Below, piece after piece: positions 19,197 to 57,451 of a DNA stretch of 64,000 bases (positions are counted from its first letter, which is position 1; the number at the start of each line of letters is the position of its first letter). The stretch comes from Bacteroidota bacterium (GTDB lineage: Bacteria > Bacteroidota > Bacteroidia > UBA8524). Location of the stretch: assembly GCA_016124735.1 (NCBI GenBank), contig WGMZ01000019.1, forward strand, positions 67,217 through 131,216, in the 5' to 3' direction. The position numbers and the translations under genes were made by a program. The notes under the pieces were generated by a model, which ran no database searches, had not been told where the DNA came from, and saw nothing but the letters and a program-made list of their open reading frames with translations.

Positions 19197-19256
19197 GTCT
19201 TTTAGTTTGGTACATGAATATAACCAATAAGTAGAAGTAATTATTGTTGAATTATC

Positions 19257-19299
19257 TTCTTTTTGGCTTGAACCAAAAAGAACCAAAAAGAACCAAAAA
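19257..19299. repeat. TTCTTTTTGG / CCAAAAAGAA inverted and direct repeats
   Basis: TTCTTTTTGG (19257-19266), spacer CTTGAA, then CCAAAAAGAA (19273-19282), repeated directly at 19283-19292 and partly at 19293-19299. The first two arms form a perfect 10-bp inverted repeat. It borders the dispersed repeat that begins at 19302. Confidence 0.75.
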
Positions 19300-19301
19300 A
19301 T

Positions 19302-19602
19302 TCAAGGCCAAAATATGCTTCCCTGCTCTTATTTTTTTCTTAACGGTCGGCCATTGCATCTGGCCTCCCTAAAAAAAAACATCACGCCAACGCTCGCCCC
19401 GCATTTTGGCCAGCCCACCCGCACGGAGCTTACCTGTTTCTAACAGACTGAGATGCTAGCTTATGCCGGCGTCAGCAATTGGCGCCTGGCTTCCGTCCCG
19501 AATTGGTCGGGAGGGCACCCGCTGCCTGACGGAGCGTCTATTTTCTTCCCTGTTTGAGCGAACAAGGTGAAGCGAGTGCGCTTTTTTTGTTTCTTTTTTT
19601 CT
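19302..19602. repeat. Dispersed intergenic repeat, copy 1
   Basis: About 300 bp of non-coding DNA, the main content of the 592-bp gap between the two paralogues. It shares ordered blocks with 56396-56710: TCAAGGC-AAAATATGCTT, CCATTGCATCTGGCCTCC, ACATCACGCCA, TTTTGGCCAG-CCCACCC, a GTCCCGA...TCGGGAGGG hairpin, and the terminal GCGCTTTTTT-TTTCTTTTT. Spacers between blocks have diverged. The short frames through it are not gene-like. The rest of the gap (19603-19788) shows nothing recognisable. Confidence 0.75.
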
Positions 19603-19788
19603 AAATAAAAGAAATGAGCAGTAACACGAGATAAATATTCTGAAATAAGCAACAGTGAGAAAATGGAGATTCCTGTGATTTATCTAATCATCCAAAATTC
19701 TGAGAATATTCTTGCTTTTGGAGGGTGCAAATTTGAACAATGTGTATAGAATCAATAAAGCAATGAATCTGCACAATGCTGTGATTCA

Positions 19789-56087: not shown

Positions 56088-56395
56088 AGGTTTTTAATGT
56101 GTAGACCCTAGAGCGTGCTTTGTTGAATTTGACTGTCAGATGAGTGCACTTTCAGATATCGAGATCTCGATTCAGGATGCAATTGTAAAATGCAAAAGAT
56201 GTCTATTCTTTCTTGTGATCTTTGCACCTAATTCACGTTGCATGAGTCTCCGTTTTGATACCATCAAGAGTTTTCACGAAGGAGTTATATCCCAAAATTT
56301 TCAAATAGAATCTGACTCAATCCTCGATTTATTCATGTTCGTTTTGCCTTGACACTTCGGCCTTGCTCAGTGTAAAATCCAAACGAACCAATAAA
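56088..56395. other. Gene-free stretch before the dispersed repeat
   Basis: About 300 bases with no convincing coding frame; a 70-codon open frame at 56140-56352 has no protein-like features and no promoter box. Nothing else recognised. Confidence 0.4.
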
Positions 56396-56710
56396 TCAAG
56401 GCTAAAATATGCTTACTTGCTCTCCTTTTTTTTAAACGACCGTCCATTGCATCTGGCCTCCATAAACAACATCACGCCATACCGCTGCCCGCTTTTTGGC
56501 CAGTCCCACCCACATCCTGGTTTTGGATTTCTACTTTATCTGGCGCCAGCCATTTGTGCTTAGCTTTCGTCCCGAAATTTATCGGGAGGGTACCTGCCGC
56601 TCGATGAATTTTTTCATAATCCTTAGTGCACTATAATCATATTTAGCTCTCCGCACTCTAACTTTGACGAAGCCGCTGGAGGTAATTGCGCTTTTTTGTT
56701 TCTTTTTATT
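56396..56710. repeat. Dispersed intergenic repeat, copy 2
   Basis: Shares ordered blocks with 19302-19602 in the same orientation: TCAAGGC-AAAATATGCTT, CCATTGCATCTGGCCTCC, ACATCACGCCA, TTTTGGCCAG-CCCACCC, the GTCCCGA...TCGGGAGGG hairpin and a terminal GCGCTTTTTTGTTTCTTTTT. The loop and spacer bases differ, so the copies are old or under partial constraint. Non-coding. Confidence 0.75.
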
Positions 56711-56842
56711 CATGATTGTCAGCTGTTCATAGGTATTCATGAATGCTTCGCATTTTTCGAAAAAAAGTGAGGGTAAAAAATAATAAAATTGAATTTTTGG
56801 ATTAGCCAAAAAGATAATTAGAAGTAAATTAACGGAGACTCA

Positions 56843-57285
56843 TGCCGCTTACTTCAGTTATGTCGCTTACGTCAATGGATTAGCTTCGCTGATCCAGGTA
56901 TGGGGTTGCCTAAACAAAAAGCCGCCATCCGTCACTTTGTTCCGGCTGCCGCTTACTTCGCTTACTTCAGTTATGTTGCTTACGTCAATGGATTAGCTTC
57001 GCTGATCCAGGTATGGGGTTTGCCTAAACAAAAAGCCGCCATCCTTCACTTTGTTCCGGCTGCCGCTTACTTCGCTTACTTCAGTTATGTCGCTTACGTC
57101 AAAGGATTAGCTTCGCTGATCCAGGTATGGGGTTTGCCTAAACAAAAAGCCGCCATCCTTCACTTTGTTCCGGCTGCCGCTTACTTCAGTTATGTCGCTT
57201 ACGTCAATGGATTAGCTTCGCTGATCCAGGTATGGGGTTGCCTAAACAAAAAGCCGCCATCCGTCACTTTGTTCCGGCTGCCGCT
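56843..57285. repeat. Four tandem 104/114-bp units beside tRNA-Pro
   Basis: Units begin with TGCCGCTTACTTC at 56843 (104 bp), 56947 (114 bp), 57061 (114 bp) and 57175 (104 bp), ending in a partial TGCCGCT at 57279. They are nearly identical; the 10-bp difference comes from an extra 9-bp stretch near the start and one extra T in GGGGTTTGCC. On the minus strand each unit carries GGATGGCGGCTTTTTG, like the 3' side of a terminator. The 104-bp units break any common reading frame, so a repeat protein is unlikely. Confidence 0.88.
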
Positions 57286-57344
57286 TTTTTCATTTCCAGT
57301 GCTCGCTTGAGCCTTTGGCTCAGATTCGCCTGGAAATGAAAAAA
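57285..57344. repeat. Long nested inverted repeat
   Basis: TTTTTTCATTTCCAG (57285-57299) and CTGGAAATGAAAAAA (57330-57344) form a perfect 15-bp stem, enclosing a second perfect hairpin TGAGCC-TTT-GGCTCA (57308-57322). It lies between the tandem units and the tRNA terminator. Confidence 0.85.
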
Positions 57345-57366
57345 CCGCTCATGCTTCGCATGGCGG
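57339..57366 (-). terminator. Rho-independent terminator of tRNA-Pro
   Basis: Minus strand: CCGC-CATGC (57366-57358), loop GAA, GCATG-A-GCGG (57354-57345) and then T6. One bulged base; 11 bases after the tRNA 3' end. Confidence 0.78.
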
Positions 57367-57377
57367 CTTTTTGTTTG

Positions 57378-57451
57378 TCGGGGTGACTGGATTCGAACCA
57401 GCGACCTCGTCGTCCCGAACGACGCACGCTACCGGGCTGCGCTACACCCCG
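57378..57451 (-). tRNA. tRNA-Pro (anticodon CGG)
   Basis: The minus strand folds into a cloverleaf: acceptor CGGGGTG (57451-57445) pairs with CACCCCG, a D arm with AGCGCAGCCCGGTAGCG, anticodon stem CGTCG/CGACG with loop TTCGGGA giving anticodon CGG, and a T arm with GGTTCGAATCC. No CCA is encoded. The terminator follows at once. Confidence 0.93.

Follow-up and report, generated by a model that had tools for sequence, protein, structure and literature searches.

A dispersed repeat family in a Bacteroidota draft genome as a very probable IS1595-linked MITE with a candidate partner insertion sequence

Results

The repeat pair and its extent

The window analysed here, i.e. the whole 64,000-bp stretch of a Bacteroidota draft genome, carries two copies of a non-coding repeat, at 19.3 and 56.4 kb, for which the initial annotation offered two explanations, namely a non-autonomous mobile element and a structured RNA. 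The question raised by the locus is what kind of sequence this repeat is. We are highly confident that it is a non-autonomous MITE of the IS1595 family.

Positions 19281-19525 align with 56376-56600 at 72% identity over 247 columns (E ~4e-34), and a second block common to both copies, 19577-19598 and 56687-56707, represents the T-rich end; the two aligned blocks confirm the ordered arrangement and the shared T-rich end described initially. The hairpin, the stem of which was said to be kept while the loop differs, was also seen in this form in both copies (Table 1). The repeat is thus confirmed as a dispersed one, but the 300 bp originally assigned to it are only a part of the element: the region 19302-19602 is the middle of copy 1, and most copies run beyond 300 bp to common ends, as was seen on comparison of their flanks. 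The blocks conserved between the window copies reflect shared ancestry, that is, descent from one mobile ancestor, which explains them; the suggestion that they are under constraint found no support.

Table 1 Coordinates of the two window copies, their parts and the partner insertion sequence
Feature	Position	Strand	Remarks
Copy 1, end-truncated decayed MITE	19258..19677	+	outer limits inferred by eye
Hairpin GTCCCGA...TCGGGAGGG, copy 1	19495..19515	+	
Copy 2, complete 604-bp element, divergent subgroup (L030)	56241..56844	+	
Left terminal inverted repeat, copy 2	56241..56254	+	inverted pair 100%
Right terminal inverted repeat, copy 2	56831..56844	-	inverted pair 100%
Hairpin GTCCCGA...TCGGGAGGG, copy 2	56569..56590	+	
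Partner IS, 1,004 bp	L040:1500-2503		ends CATGAGTCTCCG / CGGAGACTCATG

Copy number in the genome

The genome is a 3.11-Mb draft in 53 contigs. At least 70 matching pieces, far more than chance would give, were obtained with copy 1 as the query and at least 54 with a complete copy. Forty-eight rows chosen from both searches and merged at 600 bp gave a family size of about 43 places including short fragments, a number that is approximate because only the best 40 of 63 or 69 candidates were scored in each search, several further ends from an end-pattern search being left out of it. The copies used as queries thus revealed additional ones, and the expectation that two copies in the window would mean many in the genome proved right. 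Searched in the genome, the end pattern itself was matched exactly 21 times, and its reversed form not once. Pairwise identity among full copies has a median of 84% and reaches 96% in the closest pair; therefore recent movement is not proved. Several copies of the family are located at contig ends.

Element ends and target duplications

The left end of the element reads CATGAGTCTCCG[C/T]TT...TACCAC and the right end ...GGGAAATAAACGGATACACATG, and the two form an imperfect inverted pair; in full copies the imperfect inverted repeats are CATGAGTCTCCG... and ...CGGATACACATG. Such terminal inverted repeats are common to the family and are present in window copy 2, not in copy 1. In 17 copies both ends could be recognised, and the length of these is 487-604 bp.

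Thirty loci were fetched, and the same 17 were kept for the duplication test, the remaining 13 of 30 having an end that was missing, decayed, misplaced or cut by the contig. The 8-bp flanks are identical in seven of the 17 copies, agree at seven of eight positions in three more and at three to six positions in the other seven, while in 272 controls with mispaired left and right flanks no pair reaches seven and only eight reach six. Insertion with an 8-bp target duplication, which the initial annotation had proposed to look for, is therefore established for the family.

No transposase gene was found inside the element: the longest ORF in the 17 copies is 48-96 aa long and lies on the plus strand in nine and on the minus strand in eight. 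When the flanks were joined with the element and 8 bp removed, an ORF of at least 100 aa was found to run across the join at five of the 17 sites (L007, L010, L017, L019 and L030), so that an intergenic location can be claimed for 12 of the 17 copies at most.

The L017 site was also compared with two congeneric genomes, G001 and G002, in which the same two flanking genes are present with no element between them; the intergenic sequences there are too diverged for the join to be defined at the base level.

Two shorter elements were found in the same genome. The first is an 87-bp minimal element (L041:1500-1586), which consists of hardly anything but two ends almost identical to those of the MITE, has no core and shows the exact 8-bp duplication ATTAATTT, and the second is a 182-bp deletion derivative of the MITE (L032:1829-2010) with the exact duplication ACCAATTA. 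A related, decayed minimal element lies beside copy L014 (from L014:1871).

The partner insertion sequence

One of the loci obtained with the end pattern, L040, is an insertion sequence (IS) of the IS1595 type with ends matching those of the MITE (Table 1). It is flanked on both sides by the exact 8-bp duplication AAATCCAT and contains an uninterrupted ORF of 311 aa, the product of which matches DDE_Tnp_IS1595 (PF12762, 60.8 bits with a cut-off of 27), Zn_ribbon_IS1595 (PF12760, 28.4 bits with a cut-off of 25.4) and the NCBIfam model transpos_IS1595 (NF033547, 152.5 bits with a cut-off of 75).

The right end of the MITE, CATGTGTATCCG, is different from the CATGAGTCTCCG of the IS. Past the 12-bp tip, the left end of copy L002 matches the IS at 17 of 24 positions (13-36), and none of 2000 shuffles was as good. 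Among the other 16 copies, no more than 25 of 2000 shuffles did as well past the tip in eight and 40-200 of 2000 in L006, L007, L011, L012 and L030, and the similarity was no better than chance in L008, L009 and L019 (696-1064 of 2000). As far as can be seen, the interior of the MITE is not derived from the IS.

The inverted ends, the 8-bp duplications and the presence of an IS with matching ends together make the repeat a non-autonomous element, i.e. a MITE; with the element-free site in the congeners, they uphold the first of the two explanations offered initially. Judging from the sequences, an IS1595-type transposase very probably mobilised the MITE in trans. It would supply only ends recognisable by such an enzyme, namely CATGAGTCTCCG...TACCAC and the variant right end CATGTGTATCCG; the transposase from the 1,004-bp IS would bind these ends and insert the MITE, duplicating 8 bp of a mostly A+T-rich target. 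That the transposase encoded at L040 is the actual mover, and that it still acts as such, is what we infer from these data.

This genome also has another IS1595-family IS, with different tips (CATGACTGTCC as opposed to CATGAGTCTCCG), which is cut by contig ends. Contigs C53, C7, C20, C24 and C8 begin with its right part, and C14, C32 and C42 have its left part at one end; this splitting over many contig ends points to several copies that were merged during assembly, and this IS is therefore probably multi-copy. A relative of the transposase, with 56% identity, one in-frame stop and similar ends, was found in G004, a genome of a sister genus.

The two window copies

Copy 1 is located between two minus-strand genes, according to the ORF list. 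Its left terminal repeat is missing, the left junction having been placed by alignment with the corresponding G004 locus, and a possible decayed right terminus is AAAATGGAGATTC (19660-19672). The flanking 8-mers AATTATCT (19250-19257) and ATTTATCT (19678-19685) match at seven of eight positions, which is weak evidence as the comparison was made by eye with no control. Copy 1 carries three perfect repeats of GAACCAAAAA at its left edge (19270-19299). One terminator-like site was counted in this copy against 0.5 expected. In G001, about 139 bp separate the orthologue of the left gene from the next gene, coding for a Rho-like protein as identified by eye, and in G004 there is no element between the two genes flanking copy 1. 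The precise pre-insertion site was not found in either genome, the sequence being too diverged.

The termini of copy 2 are perfect 14-bp inverted repeats, CATGAGTCTCCGTT and AACGGAGACTCATG, both of the CATGAGTCTCCG type as in the partner IS. No recognisable target duplication is present at this copy (3/8). It is a divergent copy: of the 136 pairwise identities, the three lowest (58-62%) all involve it. Promoter-like sites number four against 1.4 expected, the best of them matching at 11 of 12 positions. A tandem array of four 114-bp units (56846-57286) begins at most two bases from the right end of copy 2, and an inverted partial copy of the unit, at 57357-57376, adjoins a tRNA-Pro gene (57377-57451, minus strand). 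The two flanking genes are less than 100 bp apart in G001, which is not a simple empty site because the tRNA-Pro gene and the tandem array are absent there too.

Both window copies look old: copy 2 keeps both ends and copy 1 has lost the left one. Since copy 2 is without a recognisable duplication and copy 1 without a left terminus, the two are assigned to the family by their homology to its remaining copies.

Distribution in related genomes and the origin of the core

Among three members of the same bacterial family (G001, G002 and G003) the element was not found, except for a 44-bp match in G003 to the left edge of copy 1, which is A-rich and rich in AACCAAAAAG. The G004 genome contains one core-only stretch, with 76% identity over 106 bp to window positions 19286-19391, and no IS1595-type end was detected at up to two mismatches within 0.8 kb of it. 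This sequence was included in alignment A1 together with 18 of the 28 core copies.

An exact core pattern searched in 395 genomes of the class matched only the genome under study (20 matches) and G004 (one match), the reach of this pattern being limited, as 20 home matches compared with about 43 places indicate. A sequence model searched in 395 genomes of the phylum, with the best eight candidates per genome scored, found only the genome under study, with at least eight copies listed, which makes a weak negative. In the GTDB contig collection, a similar pattern matched seven stretches, of which one, from a Bacteroidetes MAG (SBGR01000012), was identified by sequence as the G004 locus and six are from other phyla. 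No match was found in viral contigs and plasmids. With a larger query, six of 40 relatives were matched, namely the genome under study, G004 (82 bp) and four genomes of other families (G005, G007, G017 and G034), the latter with pieces of 25-62 bp (E 8e-5 to 5e-4), which are taken for chance or low-complexity matches. A core widespread in Bacteroidota is unsupported by the genome, contig, viral and plasmid searches.

These data bear on a refinement of the MITE explanation, which we regard as possible though rather doubtful: an older, independent core (about 19300-19400), found at the level of the bacterial family, would have been captured between IS1595 ends and amplified as a passenger. The single core relative in G004 with no IS1595-type end nearby, the 87-bp core-less element with nearly the same ends, and the copies L001 and L029, which share TTCTTTTTG as their starting point and have no terminal repeat there, are in agreement with it. 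Against this, there is only one copy outside the genome, the ends of which may simply have decayed, and in copy 2, the full copy that diverges most, both ends are already present. The element would then tentatively be seen as two-layered, its core having spread earlier in the bacterial family by other means and having been captured later between minimal IS1595 ends; if so, an empty shell, the loaded element and copies of the core alone still coexist in this genome.

The hairpin and other explanations of the repeat

The second explanation offered initially was a structured RNA; taken as a non-coding RNA or RNA-level regulator that occurs in many copies and whose hairpin is selected for, it appears very improbable. 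It is true that the stem is kept in both window copies with differing loops and that 95.7% of hairpin cells pair, slid versions being worse, but a self-derived stem tends to beat its slid versions anyway. The pair counts, made on 15 loci with the hairpin and window copy 2 (14 distinct sequences) with nine hairpin-less loci excluded, revealed one compensatory cell, and the covariation score was reached by 58 of 500 shuffles, i.e. the hairpin does not stand above shuffled alignments. Anchors for the comparison were found in 24 of the 30 loci, and in nine of these 24 copies the hairpin is absent; as the hairpin-less copies L010, L013, L017 and L021 carry exact target duplications, the hairpin is not needed for movement. 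Folding of the two window copies was no more stable than that of shuffled sequence (z values of -0.62 and -0.37). Rfam matched only tRNA over the window at the gathering score and gave only implausible microRNA and sRNA matches over both copies at a relaxed threshold, and there is no match to the repeat in the congeners G001 and G002.

HUH transposition is not known to create target duplications. Two Y1_Tnp (PF01797) matches in the genome (L031 and L032), one of them about 0.1 kb from the 182-bp derivative, and small palindromes in the MITE interior would agree with a palindromic repeat of the REP/BIME type, mobilised by a Y1 (HUH, RAYT) transposase. This explanation has next to no probability and was rejected on the 8-bp target duplications of the family; moreover, the termini are inverted repeats shared with a DDE-type IS, and the derivative near the Y1 fragment has its own IS1595-type ends and duplication, with the Y1 match outside it.

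The MITE family identified here belongs to an ordinary class of mobile elements in bacteria. It accounts for unassigned repeats in the genome, and its copies mark likely assembly break sites.

Comparison with known systems

No description of the present element was found among the part of the literature matches that was listed, which does not prove its absence. According to the available part of a description of the IS1595 family, its members usually produce 8-bp target duplications and fall into the groups IS1016, ISPna2, ISH4, IS1595, ISSod11, ISNwi and ISNha5 (PMC8101967). The family described here resembles these in its 8-bp duplications and in the local IS with matching ends, which encodes a protein with PF12762, PF12760 and NF033547 matches, and differs from them in that the repeat itself has no transposase gene. 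A transposon delimited by an IS of the IS1595 family has also been reported to show an 8-bp A+T-rich duplication (PMC7835479).

A MITE of this sort is also found in H. walsbyi, an archaeal host. The pairing of a MITE with an IS1595-family partner and 8-bp repeats is already published: the entry in Table 4 of PMC3852290 gives an IS1595-associated MITE with ISHwa6 as the partner and 8-bp direct repeats. Like the present family, it is non-autonomous and has inverted ends, an IS1595-family partner and 8-bp direct repeats; according to the same entry it is 165 bp long with 25-bp inverted repeats and seven copies, as compared with a length of 487-604 bp, inverted repeats that are short and imperfect, and about 43 places in the present genome.

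MITEs connected with other IS families include one tied to IS1182, as mentioned in the available text of PMC11578231, and MITECca01 of the Cardinium endosymbiont cOegib, which is derived from IS982 (PMC9769881). As far as that source describes it in the part available, MITECca01 is similar to the present family in being lineage-specific and in having intact parental IS copies in the same genome (PMC9769881), and it differs in its IS982-family partner and its length of 240 bp. The understanding of such elements is unchanged by the family described here, which adds to them a bacterial IS1595-linked MITE with a probable partner IS in the same genome.
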